Assembly (NCBI GenBank): GCA_009692425.1
Contig: SHZF01000003.1
Coordinates: 1-64,000, forward strand
From: Myxococcales bacterium
GTDB lineage: Bacteria > Myxococcota_A > UBA9042
Reading direction: 5' to 3'
DNA: 64,000 nucleotides
Part shown: one piece after another, positions 43,052-56,383 of the stretch
Numbering within the stretch: position 1 is the stretch's first letter
How the letters are laid out: each line of letters begins with the position of its first letter
Notes under the pieces: generated by a model
Told to the model about the DNA's origin: nothing
The model's input: the letters and a program-made list of their open reading frames with translations, nothing else
The model's database searches: none
Made by a program: the position numbers and the translations under genes

Positions 43052-43199
43052 GGGGTGCTGAGCATCGCGCACGGCGGCGGGCGTGGTCAACGCGCGGGCC
43101 AATTGCCCCTTGCCGCACCGCACGGGCGCGACTACCCTCACTCGTTCCAGTCGGCTTCGCGCGGGCGTGCGTCGATCCCGCTTTGTTTTGAGGTTTTTC

Positions 43200-46091
43200 A
43201 TGTTCGTTCGCTTGGTCACCATGGTGTCCGCGTTGGCCTTGGCTGCGGCTTGCAGTGGGCTAGAACCGGGGCAGGGAGCGGGCGCGACCGGGCCAGGCAA
43301 CCAAACGGCGGGTGGCGGCGTCGGCGATGGCGCGGGCGGGCCGGGAGCCGGTACGGTGGGCGGGGCTGCGGATGCGGGCGCCAACAACGGTGCAGCGGTG
43401 GATGGCGCGGCCACGAATCCGGACGGTGCGGCAGATGACGCAGGGGCGGCCGATTTGGCGAGCGCCAGCGATGTGGCAACGGGCGCTGACACGAGTTCTG
43501 GCCCGGACGTTGCGGTCCCTCCCGATGCGATCGGCGGCGATGCAACAGCTCCAGACACCAAGGCCGATGCCAAGGCCGACGCCGGCTCGGCCAAGGAGGA
43601 GTACAAGGAACTGCTCGTGAAAGTGCTCGGCCCCTCGGGCCGCGAGTGGGTGCAGAACGAGGGCGCCAACGTCCAGATCTCGGGCCTCGCGTTCGGCTCG
43701 CCCACATCGATCGACTGGAAGACCTTGAAGGGTCAGGCCGGCACGATCACGGCGGCCCAGTTCTGGGTCAGCGGCATCATCCCGCTGGACCAGGGCGACA
43801 ACGTTGTGACTGTCACGGCGAAAAAGGGCGACCAGATCGCGATCGACACCGTGCGCATCACCTACAACCCCTTCTTCTCGTTCGAGGGCAATCCGGACGT
43901 GGCGCCGGACCTGCTGTTTGTCGGCGAGTCGGCCAAGCTCGTCGTCCACATGCCGGTGGCGGCAGCTCAGGCCGGCATCGGCGGCGGCAACAACGTCGTC
44001 GACCCGAACACGATCACGCTCGTCGAGGTCGATGCAAACGGCAAGGAGATCAAGGACTGGGGCAAGCTCGTCGACAACGGCCAGGTTGGTCAGTGCGACG
44101 ACGTGCCCAAGGACAGCGTGTACTCCTCGTGCCTGACGGCCAAGATCGACGTACCCAAGACGCTCTACTTTCGCGTGCGGGCCAAGGTCAGCGTGTTCGA
44201 AAAGGTCTACGACGCGCTGTCGCCGGTGACGGTCGTCGATGTCGTGGAGCGCTTCAACAAGCAGGAGTGCACGCAAATCGTGTCGCTCCAGCAGAAGGTG
44301 AAGGCCGACTACCTCGCGGCAGTCGAAGCTCAGGGTGCGGCGGCGGCTCAGGCGGCTGCGCTGGCGGCGCTCAAGGCGGACCCGGCGGTGGCAGAGGCGG
44401 GTCCGGCGGCGAACGGCGGCTACAGCATATGGGTGCGCTACAAGACGGGTCGGCTCGGCGCGCTGAACCTGGCGCCAAAAGGCGTGCGCGGTGGCGGCGG
44501 CGCTCCTGGTGCCAGCCCTGACGCGGACAGCGGTGGCCCGGGACCTGCAGCCGCCCTGCCAACCTTCAGCGTGGGCACCCGACGTGCGCTCGCCTTGGCC
44601 CCGTTTGCGGCTGAGTTCACGACGTCGAAGTGCGCGGCGACGGCGGCCACGTGCGACCCCGGCTGCGCGAAAGGATTCTTGTGCGGCGCCGCGGGCAACT
44701 GTGCGCCGGCCTCGAACGGCTGCGAAGCCCCCTGTGGTGCCGACCAGGCGTGCGTGATCGACGTTGGCGACGAGGCCGACCTGGCCGGCAAGCTGTTGAA
44801 GGCGCGCGAGTGCCCGCCGTTTGCCGTCGACAGTGCCGCCGGCTCCAACGCGCTGCTCAGGTGGTACCGCGACATGTCGAGCTACGGTGCCGTCGCGATC
44901 ACGGGCCACGGCGACGTGCTCTTCGAAGGCATGGACGCCGCCGCCAAAGCCACGCTCGGCTGGGAACATCTCGGCGCCCAAGAGGTCCTGTGGTCCGGCG
45001 AGGCCTCGGACTGCAAGGAACTGTCGGGCACCACGGCCGGTTGCAACCAGGCCGGCGCGGGCTGCCCCAAGGGCGAGAGCTGCGTGAAGACTTCCATGTC
45101 GACCGGCGTCTGCGTCGACAAGACCCAGGGCGACATCATGAAGGGGCGGGTCGCGATCGGAGACTCGACCTATGCCTTGCTGCCCTCGTTCGTGCAGCGC
45201 CACGGCAACGACCCGTTCCCGCAGAGCATCGTCTACCTGGGCGCCTGCCGCACCATGTACAACGGCTCGCTGGCGGTGCAACTGTACGGCAATGGCGCCC
45301 AGGCGGTGGTTGGATTCAGCGACTATGTGTCGAACAAGTTCGCGTTCGAGAAGGGCTGGAAGCTGTTCCAGGGCCTCATCGCCGGCAACCTCGGCGTCTA
45401 CGAGGCGCACGACCCGTCGTTCGAAGACCCCCAGTACGGCGGCCGCATGCGCCTGATGGGCAACGGCAAGGCCAACGCGAAGGAGTCCGCAATCATCAAT
45501 CCGTCGTGGGACCTCGGCAAGCTCATCGGGTGGAAGGCGGTGGGCGACGGCCGCGTCATCTCGCGGTTGGGCGTCACGATCCCGGTCGCGGGCAAGTTCA
45601 TGGGGATCATCTCGACGGGCCTCGGGTTCACCGCCCAGAACGGATCGCTCGAACAGCCCTTCTGCATCGGGCCCGGCAAGACGGAGCTGTGCTATTTCTG
45701 GAAGTTCTATTCTGAGGAGTTCATCGAGTGGTGCGGCTCGCAGTTCATGGACCGCTTCACCGTCACGCTGATGGCCGAGACCCAGAACAAGAAGCTGACG
45801 ATGACCGACGTGTGGATCGATGAACTGTGCCCGTACGACTGCGGCGGCAAGAAGCCGTGCCAGCCCGGCGACCCGGCGTGCCAGTGTGGCAAGCAGTGGA
45901 AGACGTTGACGCAGGCCGACCTCAGCTTCGACCAGGGCGGCGTGTACATGACGCCGTGGCAGAAGCAGTGCGCCGACATCTCGACGCTGGCCGGCTCGAA
46001 CTTGAAGGTCAATCTGTCATTCTTCGCGACGGACAAGGGCGACTCGATCTTCGACACCGCCGTGCTCATCGACGAAGTCACGGTGCAGTAG
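43200..46091 (+). CDS. large lipoprotein with caspase-like (clan CD/CHAT-type) pattern
   Basis: 963 residues. Signal peptide with lipobox LAAAC (MFVRLVTMVSALALAAAC), then ~120 residues of Gly/Ala/Asp linker. Residues ~140-350 look like beta-rich domains. A Cys-rich stretch (CDPGCAKGFLCGAAGNC) follows near 485. Then VAITGHGDVLFEGM (His570) and SIVYLGACRTMYNGSLAVQL (Cys683) followed by AQAVVGFSDYV form the His...Cys order of caspase/CHAT-like peptidases. The C-terminal ~200 residues look like a jelly-roll ending in TAVLIDEVTV. A surface protease is plausible but unproven; the fold could be inactive. Confidence 0.82.
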   Translation: MFVRLVTMVSALALAAACSGLEPGQGAGATGPGNQTAGGGVGDGAGGPGAGTVGGAADAGANNGAAVDGAATNPDGAADDAGAADLASASDVATGADTSSGPDVAVPPDAIGGDATAPDTKADAKADAGSAKEEYKELLVKVLGPSGREWVQNEGANVQISGLAFGSPTSIDWKTLKGQAGTITAAQFWVSGIIPLDQGDNVVTVTAKKGDQIAIDTVRITYNPFFSFEGNPDVAPDLLFVGESAKLVVHMPVAAAQAGIGGGNNVVDPNTITLVEVDANGKEIKDWGKLVDNGQVGQCDDVPKDSVYSSCLTAKIDVPKTLYFRVRAKVSVFEKVYDALSPVTVVDVVERFNKQECTQIVSLQQKVKADYLAAVEAQGAAAAQAAALAALKADPAVAEAGPAANGGYSIWVRYKTGRLGALNLAPKGVRGGGGAPGASPDADSGGPGPAAALPTFSVGTRRALALAPFAAEFTTSKCAATAATCDPGCAKGFLCGAAGNCAPASNGCEAPCGADQACVIDVGDEADLAGKLLKARECPPFAVDSAAGSNALLRWYRDMSSYGAVAITGHGDVLFEGMDAAAKATLGWEHLGAQEVLWSGEASDCKELSGTTAGCNQAGAGCPKGESCVKTSMSTGVCVDKTQGDIMKGRVAIGDSTYALLPSFVQRHGNDPFPQSIVYLGACRTMYNGSLAVQLYGNGAQAVVGFSDYVSNKFAFEKGWKLFQGLIAGNLGVYEAHDPSFEDPQYGGRMRLMGNGKANAKESAIINPSWDLGKLIGWKAVGDGRVISRLGVTIPVAGKFMGIISTGLGFTAQNGSLEQPFCIGPGKTELCYFWKFYSEEFIEWCGSQFMDRFTVTLMAETQNKKLTMTDVWIDELCPYDCGGKKPCQPGDPACQCGKQWKTLTQADLSFDQGGVYMTPWQKQCADISTLAGSNLKVNLSFFATDKGDSIFDTAVLIDEVTVQ

Positions 46092-48327: not shown

Positions 48328-48963
48328 GTGCGCCTGCTGCTGGTCGACCACGCCGACAGTTTCACCTGGAACCTCGCGGCCTTGTTCGTCGAAGCCGCCC
48401 AGCGCGAGGGGATTCGTCTCGACCTGCGCGTGGTCCGCCACGCGGGCCTCGCAGTCGCCGATGTCGACGCCTGGGCCCCCGACGCCCTCGCACTGTCGCC
48501 GGGTCCCTGCAGCCCGGCCGAGGTGCCCGGCAGTCTCGAACTCGTGCGTGCCAACGCGGGCCGGCGGCCGCTGTTCGGCGTGTGTCTGGGGCTGCAGGTG
48601 GCGGCGGCGGCGTTCGGCGGGCGCATCGTGCGGGCGCCGCGGCCGGTGCACGGCAAGGGGGCCTTCGTGCAGCACGACGGAGCGGGCGTGTTCGCTGGGC
48701 TGCCGCGCCCGCTGACGGCCATGCGCTACCACAGCCTCGTCGTCGATGCGGCCAGCCTGCCGCCGGGCTTCGACGTGACTGCCTGGCTCGACGATTGCGA
48801 CGTGCGCCTCGTGATGGGGTTGCGCGACACGGTGCGCGGCATCGAGGCCGTGCAGTTTCACCCGGAGAGCGTCGGCACGCCCGATGGACTGGCAGTGGCG
48901 CGCACGGCGCTGATCGGGATGGCGGCATGGCGCGGGCACGTCGCAGCCCCGTCACCAGCTTGA
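48328..48963 (+). CDS. anthranilate/aminodeoxychorismate synthase glutamine amidotransferase-like
   Basis: 211 residues from GTG 48328. Class I amidotransferase signature: LLLVDHADSFTWNLAALF at the start, LSPGPCSPAEVPGSLELV, nucleophile Cys in FGVCLGLQVAAAAFGG, and the His-Glu pair in VQFHPESVGTPDG. This is the PabA/TrpG type, which supplies ammonia to a chorismate-using partner. No component I gene is in the window, so the partner is unknown. The gene starts 21 bp after the preceding lipoprotein. Confidence 0.85.
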   Translation: MRLLLVDHADSFTWNLAALFVEAAQREGIRLDLRVVRHAGLAVADVDAWAPDALALSPGPCSPAEVPGSLELVRANAGRRPLFGVCLGLQVAAAAFGGRIVRAPRPVHGKGAFVQHDGAGVFAGLPRPLTAMRYHSLVVDAASLPPGFDVTAWLDDCDVRLVMGLRDTVRGIEAVQFHPESVGTPDGLAVARTALIGMAAWRGHVAAPSPA

Positions 48964-49606
48964 TCCCAGGCCGATCCGCGCGTAGGGTCCGCCCGCCGCG
49001 AACTGCGGGGTGGTCGGTGGGCCGCGCACGCAGTCGCTTCATATCACATGAGTGTTGTCCGAGACTTCGCGTCGAAGAGCCCCGGGGGAGCGTAGCGATG
49101 TGTGGCTTCACGGGTCTGGTCGATGCCAAGCTCGACGCCGATCGCCTCGACGCGACCGTGCGCCGCATGACGGCGACCCTTGCGCCCCGCGGACCGGACG
49201 CAGAAGGCCACTTCGTCGGCGCGGGCATCGCGGCCAACATCCCGCTCTACTTGCTCGCGCGCAAGCTGCGGGGCGAGATCAAGGTCGTGTTGCAGGGCGA
49301 CGGCGGCGACGAGTTGTTCGCGGGTTATCGGCGCTACGCCATCTTGCGCCACACTGCGCAGTGGCGGCGGTGGCCACGGGGGCTGACCCCCGTCGTGCGC
49401 GGCTGGCTCGGCAGCCGGGGCCGGCGGGCGGCGCGCATGGCCGACGCGATGGCCGCCCGCGACGATGGCCTGCGCATGGCCCTGCTGCTGACCGTGGAAA
49501 CGCTGGCCGAGCCACCCACGGCGCTGCTCGACGAAGGCGTCGCCCGTCTGGCAGTCCGCCTTCCATCGGCGTGGAAGGTGAGCCGCGTCGCGAATAAGAT
49601 CGTCCT

Positions 49607-49827
49607 GCGTGAGTCCCAGCGCGCCGGCCGGAGCGGTGCTCGTCGAAAAGCATCTCCAAGCGAGCGCGCTGCAGTCCGAAGCGGGCGACGAAGCCGCTGT
49701 CGAGGATGGCCGCGCGCGCGAACCCGTGCAGCTTGTCGCGCAGCCAGAACTCGTACGGCACACCGAAGCCCATCTTGGGGGCGTCGAGGATGTCGTTGGG
49801 GATGCGGCCGCGATCGGGGCTTCACGC
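49607..49827. repeat. imperfect inverted repeat flanking the inverted segment
   Basis: Left arm 49607-49630 begins GCGTGA and ends CGGCCG. Right arm 49805-49827 begins CGGCCG and ends TCACGC. About two thirds of positions pair when the right arm is reverse-complemented, with one gap. It may have guided the inversion. Confidence 0.5.
49613..49821 (-). other. inverted internal segment of the asparagine synthetase gene
   Basis: Read on the minus strand, this segment encodes RGRIPNDILDAPKMGFGVPY, EFWLRDKLHGFARAAILDSG and RLEMLFDEHRSGRRA. These are the ~63 residues expected between KIVLRE and GFTLWKLL on the plus strand. Restoring orientation gives LREAP then RGRIPND after a one-base adjustment. 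The boundaries are approximate. Confidence 0.8.
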
Positions 49828-49870
49828 TGTGGAAGCTCTTGCAGCTCGCGCTGTGGGCCAAGGTTGCCCC

Positions 49871-51031
49871 GTGACGACGCGTCCGCCACCGCCCCCGACC
49901 GGGCCGGTAACGTTCATCTTGTTGGCGCCGACGTCGAATGTCGGCGGCATTTCGACGTGGACTCGCTACCTGCTCGGTTGCTATGACCGCAACCTTATGA
50001 ATCCACTGCACATCGACACCGCGAAGAATTACGAGGAGATCGGCAAGGAGCGCAACTTGCGCGGCACCGTGCTCGGCATCGTGCACTCGCTTGGGATTCT
50101 GGCGCGCATCGTGCGGCTGCGTTTCACGTGCCGGCCGCGGCTGCTCTACACCACGTGCTCGGGTTTCTGGAGCTTCTTCACCCGCGACCTTGCGTACGTG
50201 TGGCTGGCGCGGGGGCTCGGCCTGCCGATCATCCTGCACCTGCACGCCGGCAACCTCGCGTCCTTTTTTGGCTACGGACCAATGACGCGTTGGCTGTCGC
50301 GCCGGGTGATGGGCGGTGCGGCGCGGATCGTCGTCGTCAACCGCGCCATGGAGCGGCGCGCGCGCGAGGCATACCCACACAAGACGCTCTACCTGCCGAA
50401 CATGATCGGCGAGGACATTTTCGGCTGCGTGGCCCGCGTGGCGCGCCCTGCGGACGGGGGCGTGCGCGTGCTGCACATGGCGCACCAGAGCCCAATGAAG
50501 GGGTCCTGCGACATCATCGAGGCCTTGGCCCTGCTCAAGGGACGGCATCCCGGGCTCGTGTGTGACCTGGTCGGCAAGGGCGCTCCCGAGCATGAGGCGG
50601 CGATTCGGCAGCGGATTGCACAACATGGCCTCGAAGCGACCGTGCGCCTGCGCCCCGAAGCGTCTGGCGACGTGAAGTGGAAGTTCTTCAACGATGCCGA
50701 CATCTTCCTGTTTCCATCGCACACCGAAGGGTTTCCCAATGTGATCCTCGAAGCGATGTGCTTCGGCCTGCCGATCCTCGCAACGCCCGTCGGCAACATC
50801 CGCGAGATGATCGGCATCGACACCGCGGACCCGGCGGGCGTGCTGCTGCAGGGCGTGAATCCCGTGTCCGCCGAGGAGCTTGCGCGTGAGCTGACGCGGC
50901 TGGTCGAGGACCCCGGGCTACGCGCTCGGCTGGGAGAGAGCGGGCCACGGCGGGTGCGCGAGCACTTCGTCACCGGGGTCGTCATGCCGCGCATCGAGGC
51001 GCTGATCGTGGATGCGGCGGTGCCAAGGTAG
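49871..51031 (+). CDS. GT4-family glycosyltransferase
   Basis: 386 residues from GTG 49871, whose GTGA overlaps the asparagine synthetase stop. The N-terminal Rossmann lobe shows FILLAPTSNVGGISTWTRYLL and PIILHLHAGNL. The C-terminal lobe shows VRVLHMAHQSPMKGSCDIIEAL, CDLVGKGAPEH and the E-x7-E motif in SHTEGFPNVILEAMCFGLPI, typical of retaining GT-B transferases. Likely adds a sugar from an NDP donor in polysaccharide or glycolipid synthesis at the cytoplasmic membrane face. Linkage of asparagine synthetase-like and GT4 genes is common in exopolysaccharide loci. Confidence 0.88.
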   Translation: MTTRPPPPPTGPVTFILLAPTSNVGGISTWTRYLLGCYDRNLMNPLHIDTAKNYEEIGKERNLRGTVLGIVHSLGILARIVRLRFTCRPRLLYTTCSGFWSFFTRDLAYVWLARGLGLPIILHLHAGNLASFFGYGPMTRWLSRRVMGGAARIVVVNRAMERRAREAYPHKTLYLPNMIGEDIFGCVARVARPADGGVRVLHMAHQSPMKGSCDIIEALALLKGRHPGLVCDLVGKGAPEHEAAIRQRIAQHGLEATVRLRPEASGDVKWKFFNDADIFLFPSHTEGFPNVILEAMCFGLPILATPVGNIREMIGIDTADPAGVLLQGVNPVSAEELARELTRLVEDPGLRARLGESGPRRVREHFVTGVVMPRIEALIVDAAVPR

Positions 51032-53516: not shown

Positions 53517-53709
53517 GGCTTACCTCGTCAAGCGAGCGGCAGCGTGCCCAGCGGAGCGGCGAGCGTCAATGCCGGGCGCGCCCTAGAATCGCGAAGCGTG
53601 TTGAGAGGCCGCGTCTGGAGCCGTGTTGCAGGGTTGCGTCCAACGCCCCGCCACCGTAGCGTCCCCCTGCCCGGCCATCCCACCCGTCGGCCCCAAGGTG
53701 CCCGCCCGC

Positions 53710-54534
53710 GTGAACGCCATCGATGCCATCGGTGCCAAGCTCATCGGCTTCGTCCGCTACCTGTGGTTCGTGCTCGCGTTCCTCTACCTGGCCATCAAGA
53801 TGCTGTGGGTCGGCCGCAGCTTTGGCCAACGCGACCTGTTTCGCCAAGTGCTGCTGCAGGTGTACTTCACCGCGGTCGAAGCGACCGGCCCGGTCGTCGT
53901 GTTGGCCCTGGGCGTCGGCGTGATCGCGATCGTGCAAGGCGTCGGCGGCCTCGGCTCGCTGTCGGGTGCAGACAGCCTCGGCCGCATGGTGACCGTCGTC
54001 GTGCTGCGCGAGGTGGCGCCGCTTCTCACGGGCGCCATCGTGATTGTGCGCTCGGTCACCGCGATCGCGGCCGAACTCGGCATGATGCGAGTGCAGCGCG
54101 AGATCGAGGCAATGGAGGTGATGGGCATCCCGCCGGTGCGACAACTCGTCACCCCGCGGATCATCGGCGGCCTGCTCTCGGTGTTCGGGCTCAGCGTGCT
54201 GTTCAGCGCTGTGGCGCTGGTCGGCGGCTTTGCCATCGCGCAGTTGCTCGTCACGCTGCCGGCCGAGGTGTTCTTCGGCGCAGTGCTGGCGGCGACGGCG
54301 CCTTCAGACCTCGTCGCGTTCCTCGTCAAGGTGACCGTCGGCGGGGTTGGGCTCGTGCTGATCGGCTGCTACCACGGGTTCGACGTGGTCGAGTCTCCCA
54401 CGGAGGTGCCCGTCGCGGTGTCGCGGGCGGCGCTGAACAGCCTCATCTTCCTCATCGCGCTGCACGGCACGGTGTCGCTCTTGACGCTGGTGCCGCAAGG
54501 CGCGCTGGGCCTGCTGTTGGGTGGACTCGGATGA
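53710..54534 (+). CDS. mlaE: MlaE-family lipid ABC transporter permease
   Basis: 274 residues from GTG 53710; GTG 53698 is also in frame. Five or six hydrophobic segments carry MlaE landmarks: FYFTAVEATGPV-type first block (VYFTAVEATGPV), REVAPLLTGAIVIVRSVTAIAAELGMMRVQREIEAMEVMGI and PRIIGGLLSVF. It is the membrane core of the system that moves phospholipids across the envelope of diderm bacteria. First of three genes linked by ATGA overlaps with an MlaF-like and an MlaD-like gene. Confidence 0.92.
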   Translation: MNAIDAIGAKLIGFVRYLWFVLAFLYLAIKMLWVGRSFGQRDLFRQVLLQVYFTAVEATGPVVVLALGVGVIAIVQGVGGLGSLSGADSLGRMVTVVVLREVAPLLTGAIVIVRSVTAIAAELGMMRVQREIEAMEVMGIPPVRQLVTPRIIGGLLSVFGLSVLFSAVALVGGFAIAQLLVTLPAEVFFGAVLAATAPSDLVAFLVKVTVGGVGLVLIGCYHGFDVVESPTEVPVAVSRAALNSLIFLIALHGTVSLLTLVPQGALGLLLGGLG

Positions 54535-55244
54535 GCGAGGCGGTGCTCAGCCTGCCGGCGGGCCTCGAGGTCGACGTGCGTGGCCAGCGGGCCGTCGTGC
54601 CGCCGTTCGAGGCCGAGGTGGGGCGGTGGGTCGCGCTGGCACCGGCTGCGGGTGTCGCCGCCGGCGCCGCGGCCATCGCGATCGCGCGCACCCTCGGCAC
54701 GCTCACGCCTCCGCTGGCCGGCACGCTGCGTTTGTTGGGGGTCGAGACGCGGCGCCTCGAATACGTCGACCTGCTGCGGTTGCGGGCGTGCATCGGCTAC
54801 GTGCATGGCACCGGTGGCCTGCTGTCGAACCGCAGCGTGGCCGACAACATCGCCTTGCCGCTGTCGATCCATGCCCGCCTGGCACTGGCTGACGAACAGG
54901 CCCGCGTCACGGCGGCGCTGCGCACGTTTGGCCTGGAGACCGCCGCGCGCCAGCGCCCCCACGAACTCGACGGCGTCCTGCGCTTTGCGACCCTCGCTGC
55001 ACGCGCGACCGTGCTGGGTCCGGCGTGGGTCGTGGTCGAGGGCCTCGGTGATTTCGACCGCGCGGCCGCTGGTTCGCAGACCTGGCGCGCGCTGCTGGCC
55101 CGCTCCGCCGCGTTCGACGGCAGCGGCGCCGTGTGCCTGGGGCGCGCCGACGCTCCGTTCGAGGCCTGGCTGATCGAGCAAGGGGGCCACGTCGTGCGGT
55201 ACAGCCTCGCGACGCCGGCCGGGGAGGAGGCCGCACAACCATGA
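54531..55244 (+). CDS. MlaF-like ABC ATPase homologue lacking catalytic motifs
   Basis: 237 residues between mlaE and mlaD, where MlaF is expected. The ABC fold is recognisable (GTLRLLGVETRRLEY, LLSNRSVADNIALPLSIHARL). Key motifs have changed. Walker A is PAAGVAAGA (residues 39-47), with no Lys or Ser/Thr. The Q-loop region reads IGYVHGTG. The signature LSGG is LDGV (146-149). Walker B DE is EG in VVVEGLGDFD (168-171). ATP hydrolysis therefore looks impossible. ATGA overlaps at both ends show it is made with its neighbours and not disrupted. Known from family: MlaF powers MlaE. Inference: pseudo-ATPase or scaffold. Confidence 0.82.
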   Translation: MSEAVLSLPAGLEVDVRGQRAVVPPFEAEVGRWVALAPAAGVAAGAAAIAIARTLGTLTPPLAGTLRLLGVETRRLEYVDLLRLRACIGYVHGTGGLLSNRSVADNIALPLSIHARLALADEQARVTAALRTFGLETAARQRPHELDGVLRFATLAARATVLGPAWVVVEGLGDFDRAAAGSQTWRALLARSAAFDGSGAVCLGRADAPFEAWLIEQGGHVVRYSLATPAGEEAAQP

Positions 55245-56383
55245 AGATTTTCCTGACCCGGCGCGAACGGCTCGCCGGCCTGTTCATCGTGGCGACCGTG
55301 CTGCTCGTGGTCGCGTTTTTCGTCGGCGCGGCAGTTCGCAACCGCTGGCTGGCCGACAAGGTGAAGTTCCACACCCGCGTCTCGCGCGGCGATGGCCTGC
55401 GCACGGGCTCTCCGGTGCTGCTGTCGGGCATCGAGGTCGGCGAGGTCGGGCGCATGCAGATTCGCGACGATCTCGCCATCGACGTCGAACTGGTCGTCCT
55501 CGCCGACCACGCCGCACGCATCCGGGTGGGCACGCGCGCCGAGGTGCGCCGCCTGCTCGGCATCGGCGAAAAACGCATCCAACTCATGGCCGCGTCGCCC
55601 GCCGCTCCCGTGTTGCCGCCCGGTTCGATGGTGCCGGCGCTCGAGGCGGTCGATGTGCTGGAGGTGATCGGCGACCTCGATTTGTCTGGGATCATGAAGA
55701 CATCGGGGCGCGCGCTCGGCGTCGTCGAGAAGTTGATGGCGACGCTGGAAGAAAAGGACCGCTTCGAGCGGCTCGTCGGTTCTCTCGACCGCATCGGGCC
55801 GACGCTCGAACGCGTCGACAAACTGCTCGATGCTGTGCACGCCCCGGCCGTCGCCTTGCTGACCGACCCGGCGCTGCACGGCACGCTCGCCGGTGCCGAG
55901 GAACTGTTGGCCGACCCGGCGCTGCGCAAGGTGCTGCGCCACGCCGGGCAAGCGCTCGAGCCGCAGCGCATCGACCGGTTCCTGGCGCGGGCCGACCAGT
56001 TGATTGGCCGCTCCGACTTCCTGATTGACCGCGTGGACACGCTCACCAACGAGAAATCGCGGCTGCCGTCGCTGTTGCAGAACGCCGACAAGCTGCTGTC
56101 CGACACCCGCATCGACCGGTTGATCGGCGCCATCGAGCGACTGACCGACGAGAAGAAGCTCGCGGCGTTGCTGGACAACGTCACGATCCTGGCCGAGCAG
56201 AGCGGCAAGGTGGGGCCAGAGATTCCACGTCTTGTCAAGGACTTGAACATCACGCTGCGCGAAGCCGTGATCGTGCTCAAGGCCGTCCAGAAGACGTGGA
56301 TGCTCGAAGGCAAGGCCGACGACGTGCGTAAGGAGATGAAGGAGGAGCAGAAAGCCGAGCAGGCACCGCCGCCGCCGAAGTGA
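55241..56383 (+). CDS. mlaD: MlaD-type MCE-domain lipid-binding protein
   Basis: 380 residues. One membrane anchor at about 10-32 (LAGLFIVATVLLVVAFFVG) is followed by the MCE domain (FHTRVSRGDGLRTGSPVLLSG, VGEVGRMQI, LGIGEKRIQL). A long helical C-terminal region of ~240 residues has repeated LLxDPAL / RIDRxLxxxD patterns, suggesting an extended helical bundle or tunnel. It ends in a Lys/Glu/Pro tail. It should bind and pass lipids in the periplasm for MlaE. Overlaps the MlaF-like gene by ATGA; converges with the next gene 4 bp downstream. Confidence 0.9.
   Translation: MKIFLTRRERLAGLFIVATVLLVVAFFVGAAVRNRWLADKVKFHTRVSRGDGLRTGSPVLLSGIEVGEVGRMQIRDDLAIDVELVVLADHAARIRVGTRAEVRRLLGIGEKRIQLMAASPAAPVLPPGSMVPALEAVDVLEVIGDLDLSGIMKTSGRALGVVEKLMATLEEKDRFERLVGSLDRIGPTLERVDKLLDAVHAPAVALLTDPALHGTLAGAEELLADPALRKVLRHAGQALEPQRIDRFLARADQLIGRSDFLIDRVDTLTNEKSRLPSLLQNADKLLSDTRIDRLIGAIERLTDEKKLAALLDNVTILAEQSGKVGPEIPRLVKDLNITLREAVIVLKAVQKTWMLEGKADDVRKEMKEEQKAEQAPPPPK

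Follow-up and report, generated by a model that had tools for sequence, protein, structure and literature searches.

Within the 64,000-nucleotide window analyzed here (the whole stretch of DNA under study), the reading frame at 49098–49874 on the plus strand is most likely a recently rearranged pseudogene of an exopolysaccharide-type asnB gene. It had been described in the initial annotation as an asparagine synthetase gene with an inverted segment and a large deletion, and tblastn against intact relatives agrees. As had also been claimed, the frame is open throughout, running without interruption from an ATG at 49098 to a stop codon at 49872–49874 and encoding a product of 258 residues. About 365 of 622 ancestral residues (∼60% of the length) have been lost through two clean deletions, and a further 64 residues (193 bp) have been flipped. 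The lost parts include those needed for the ancestral function, the mark of a pseudogene, and the remnant is not a new system. We put at roughly 60% the probability that asnB was inactivated recently, by one microhomology-guided template-switching event that left an open remnant in front of an overlapping glycosyltransferase gene.

As references, we used the best intact relatives among 22 loci, the AsnB proteins of a Proteobacteria genome (L003, 625 aa) and a Steroidobacteraceae genome (L004, 622 aa). Comparison by tblastn and by codons resolved the remnant into five AsnB pieces, which keep the order of an ancestor of ∼622 residues (L004 numbering). Piece A (49098–49229, plus strand) corresponds to residues 1–44, the start of the glutaminase domain, and retains Cys2 and RGPD, with 50–58% identity to L003 and L004 in tblastn. 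Piece B (49230–49526, plus strand) corresponds to residues 342–439 and carries LQGDGGDELFAGY; it is 62–72% identical to L004 and L003 and matches Pfam Asn_synthase (PF00733, E 5e-16). Piece C (49527–49619, plus strand) comprises residues ∼507–536 plus SQ (LDEGVARLAVRLPSAWKV...KIVLRESQ), at 57–67% identity. Piece D (49620–49812) lies on the minus strand and corresponds to residues 538–601 (RGRIPNDIL...DEHRSGRR); read on that strand, it is 58–63% identical to the references and again matches PF00733 (E 2e-6). Piece E (49809–49874, plus strand) is the AsnB C-terminus, residues 601–618 (RDRGFTLWKLLQLALWAKVAP, followed by the stop), and is 70–83% identical to L003, L004 and a third relative, L005. 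With the L003 and L004 proteins as queries, tblastn matched residues 1–45 to 49098–49232 and residues 345–448 to 49230–49541 on the plus strand (the latter at 70% identity to L003, E 3e-33), and residues 542–605 to 49812–49621 on the minus strand (E 5e-20 to 7e-20).

Deletion 1 removed ∼298 residues (∼44–341) in frame, taking the greater part of the glutaminase domain together with the N-terminal half of the synthetase domain and its SGGxDS motif (P-loop). A loss of about 300 residues between the two domains had been proposed; the size was right, but the place was not, because what is gone is the glutaminase domain and the SGGxDS half rather than a linker. At the junction (49226–49235, plus strand), GGC ATC GCG is joined to GCC AAC, and GCG is found on both sides in the codons of L004 and L005. 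Deletion 2, which was absent from the initial annotation and was seen on comparison with L004, removed ∼67 residues (L004 440–506), also in frame. It joins PPTALL to LDEGVARLAV near 49524–49535 and eliminates the KVDRATM region; its junction (49521–49535, plus strand) reads GCG CTG CTC GAC GAA, and a CGCTGCT-like sequence occurs on both sides in L004. Because the deleted DNA is gone, both microhomologies are read from the relatives only. A search of the genome found none of the missing AsnB pieces elsewhere, and we rejected their relocation.

The inversion at 49620–49812 is exact and balanced: 193 bp were flipped with nothing lost, and the segment sits between KIVLRESQ and RDRGFTLWKLL. When the flip was undone in silico, the restored joins, LRESQ-RGRIPND and SGRR-DRGFTLWK, aligned to L003 and other relatives without a gap. 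The earlier statement that ∼63 residues lie on the opposite strand exactly between their expected neighbours was borne out by the minus-strand tblastn match and by the ancestral flanks on the plus strand. Of the three origins that the initial annotation had considered (decay, a rare micro-inversion and a reversible switch), the micro-inversion, within a dead gene, is supported. An imperfect inverted repeat had been said to bracket the segment, but 18% of random pairs with this spacing equal its local score of 16. The sole exact sequence common to both ends is CGCG, at 49620–49623 on the left and at 49809–49812 on the right, and a 4-bp inverted match is found in 2.8% of random pairs with that spacing. 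On the left, CGCG is followed by an 8-bp palindrome, CCGGCCGG (49624–49631), and on the right it overlaps another, GCGGCCGC (49804–49811); palindromes of this length beside both ends are expected in ∼1% of cases by chance, a figure calculated post hoc.

Judged from its sequence, the remnant product cannot act as an asparagine synthetase in either orientation of piece D, since both lack the SGGxDS motif and the KVDRATM region, together with almost the entire glutaminase domain. Although Cys2 is kept, residues ∼45–341 are absent, and neither GATase_6 nor GATase_7 is matched in Pfam, while both are present in intact L004. The PP-loop signature SGGxDS does not occur in the remnant translation and falls within deletion 1. 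The C-terminal synthetase domain is interrupted, with residues 440–506 missing and 538–601 on the opposite strand. Compared with glutamine-dependent asparagine synthetases of the AsnB type (GATase plus PF00733) from exopolysaccharide-type clusters, such as those of L003, L004 and L005, all pieces of the remnant align at 50–83% identity, but ∼365 of 622 residues and the catalytic parts are lost and 64 residues are flipped. Other AsnB-like genes in the genome are intact paralogues with 34–40% identity. One nearly full-length copy lies on the same contig ∼28 kb downstream of the remnant (C13:77427–79259; L054 13427–15259) and is 34% identical to L004.

The gene that follows, at 49871–51031 on the plus strand, encodes a GT4-type glycosyltransferase (Pfam Glycos_transf_1, E 4e-27), and its GTG start overlaps the asnB stop (GTGA). 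The same overlap is found in L005, and several relatives likewise have a glycosyltransferase gene after asnB. This arrangement, together with the open frame, favors the idea that the 258-residue product has a use: it may be a new, functional small protein, or its retention may serve to couple translation to the glycosyltransferase. Two in-frame deletions and a stop-free flip would be expected by chance in ∼1/9 × 0.26, or ∼3%, of cases, which is suggestive of selection for read-through, although as a hint this figure is weak and post hoc. Against the idea, the flipped 64 codons are read as an arginine-rich antisense sequence, and no catalytic set is left. We consider such a role very improbable, and only marginally less so the related proposal that an open frame was the sole reason why both deletions and the flip were tolerated, the remnant still being translated and acting either as a new small protein or as a leader that couples translation to the glycosyltransferase.

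The pieces themselves are well preserved. The similarity of every piece to L003 and L004 matches that between these two proteins (62–72% versus 63% for piece B, 58–62% versus 59% for piece D), and piece D, on its own minus strand, keeps its coding pattern, with a GC content of 0.94 at wobble positions. No piece showed substitution decay, a frameshift or a stop, and comparison with 48 homologues revealed no excess change at conserved columns. The His-to-Pro change in the HRGPD motif of the remnant is also present in 2 of these 48 homologues. Because the pieces lack decay and excess change at conserved positions, the break is either recent on the scale of amino-acid change or not biological.

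These data argue against gradual decay, one of the origins proposed initially. Deletions are the commonest route by which bacterial pseudogenes shrink, and it could be supposed that three independent accidents, two deletions and one inversion, piled up stepwise in a dead gene. Three large events would, however, require a gene dead for long enough to have gathered stops, frameshifts and amino-acid drift, none of which was seen; moreover, three independent events within 600 bp are unlikely when none of 179 other genes is flipped. We therefore regard stepwise decay as improbable. An artefact is the more serious alternative, though still an unlikely one: an amplification chimera, or local misassembly of a low-coverage metagenome, may have stitched fragments of an intact gene together. 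The genome is a 4.94-Mb draft of 137 contigs that looks metagenome-assembled, and the pieces are free of decay, as such an origin would have it. Chimeras of multiple displacement amplification are mostly inverted with intervening deletions, and >70% of their junctions are primed at 2–21 complementary bases (PMC1855051); the remnant resembles them in that its inversion and deletions likewise lie where matches are a few bases long. However, those chimeras mostly lose the intervening DNA, whereas the flip here is balanced and both reciprocal junctions are exact. In addition, no repeat of k-mer size is present to mislead an assembler, the site is 49 kb into its 169-kb contig, and neither 179 other genes nor 1.14 Mb of the genome yielded anything comparable.

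The latter figures come from scans in which ∼1.14 Mb of the genome was set against 1.18 Mb from G005, a relative in the same family. In a window-by-window homology test that recovered 108 of 120 planted 192-bp flips (90%), none of 179 other genes was flipped, while the asnB remnant scored 171–175 against a threshold of 25. Earlier settings of this test found just 11% and 15% of planted flips and were not used. A reference-free scan of codon-position GC is blind to flips with no open phase among the three, which limits its sensitivity; in 1.14 Mb it flagged a single interrupted frame, at 49623–49802, and in the 1.18 Mb of G005 none. A loosened frame scan was unspecific (524 matches in the genome, 508 in the relative) and was discarded. 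With no flips among the 179 genes and a single reference-free match, the genome is not generally scrambled, and at the scale tested (179 genes; 1.14 Mb) we rejected a genome-wide habit of flipping or chimerism. A listing of internal deletions was swamped by repeat proteins; after filtering, it held one weak candidate, a sign of a ∼40-residue internal deletion relative to the G005 homologue at C15:32249–33316 (L153 12249–13316), which may be ordinary length variation.

A reversible intragenic inverton, switching the C-terminal part of the protein, would account for an exact flip whose flipped and unflipped forms can both be read in frame, and it was the third origin suggested at the outset. Invertons carry inverted repeats of 10–40 nt (PMC11892184), but here the exact flanking repeat is the 4-bp CGCG, and the longer imperfect match is of the kind that random pairs reach in 18% of cases. 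Unflipping restores neither the P-loop nor the glutaminase domain. The initial annotation had recommended a check for site-specific recombinases: Pfam searches found no serine recombinase (PF00239) in the genome, and tyrosine recombinase matches fell on contigs C52, C45, C82, C18, C22 and C113, with none on C13, the contig of the remnant. An unlinked recombinase could in principle act on the flip. Similar to the intragenic invertons of Chanin et al. 2024, as that work is cited in PMC11892184, and to other programmed inversions, the flip lies inside a coding frame; unlike the invertons as described there, it has no 10–40 nt repeat, no linked recombinase and no functional alternative form. For want of all three we rejected the reversible switch, which we consider barely credible. 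Two of the tyrosine-recombinase-like genes lie on opposite strands a few kb apart on the 18-kb contig C18 (L167 3312–7111), possibly as part of a mobile element.

We favor template switching, according to which the growing strand would have switched template several times during replication at short GC-rich matches. Each deletion would stem from a forward skip, and the exact flip from an excursion to the opposite strand and a return, at two palindromic CGCG 4-mers ∼190 bp apart. Because the changes are close together, no flip occurs in the 179 other genes and no other decay is seen, we infer a single event for all of them; the scrambling was probably recent and probably happened in one go. Template switching is expected to leave short microhomology at several junctions close together; here there is CGCG at the flip ends (2.8% by chance), and at the deletions such matches can be read from relatives only. 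DNA folding of the flipped region gave no notable hairpin (z 0.32), which counts against the mechanism. No close relative has the locus in intact form. Chance (∼3%) may have left the frame open, or it may have stayed so because initiation of the overlapping glycosyltransferase benefits from translation running through the remnant. Near-reciprocal inversions in E. coli have been put down to a pair of template switches in a single replication fork (Lin et al. 2011, PMC3161906). Similar to those inversions, which arose in starving Escherichia coli, the flip lost almost nothing, was accompanied by other rearrangements and has palindromic or stem-forming ends. In contrast, the E. coli inversions were seen in the laboratory, with the states before and after known and with junction indels of a few tens of bp, while the flip here is exact, spans 193 bp and is deduced from sequence alone. 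A search of the genome for Ku came up empty, making end joining less likely, and we rejected end joining by Ku.

The remnant shows in compact form that a gene can be killed by several clean rearrangements with no stop codon introduced. Automatic annotation could still call it an asparagine synthetase from the leftover Asn_synthase match. If reads confirm the arrangement, it would provide a natural case of what template switching should produce in a bacterium: an exact micro-inversion whose ends are 4 bp long.

The asnB gene may have been acquired from outside the family, since piece B is closer to L004 (62% identity) than are the same-family AsnB copies, which reach at most ∼50% identity to L004 over any long stretch. 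Upstream of the remnant, an apparently intact class-I glutamine amidotransferase is encoded at 48328–48963 on the plus strand (Pfam GATase, E 2e-40, positions 1–188 of 190). Elsewhere in the window, the plus-strand gene at 54531–55244 occupies the position of the ATPase MlaF, between an MlaE permease (53623–54534) and an MlaD protein (ending at 56383). Pfam gave no match to it at E 0.01, and where a Walker A motif would be expected it has APAAGVAAGAA instead; it reads as a degenerate or pseudo-ATPase. A putative lipoprotein of 1002 residues without a Pfam match, encoded at 43083–46091 on the plus strand, has an N-terminal part rich in Ala, Gly and Asp.
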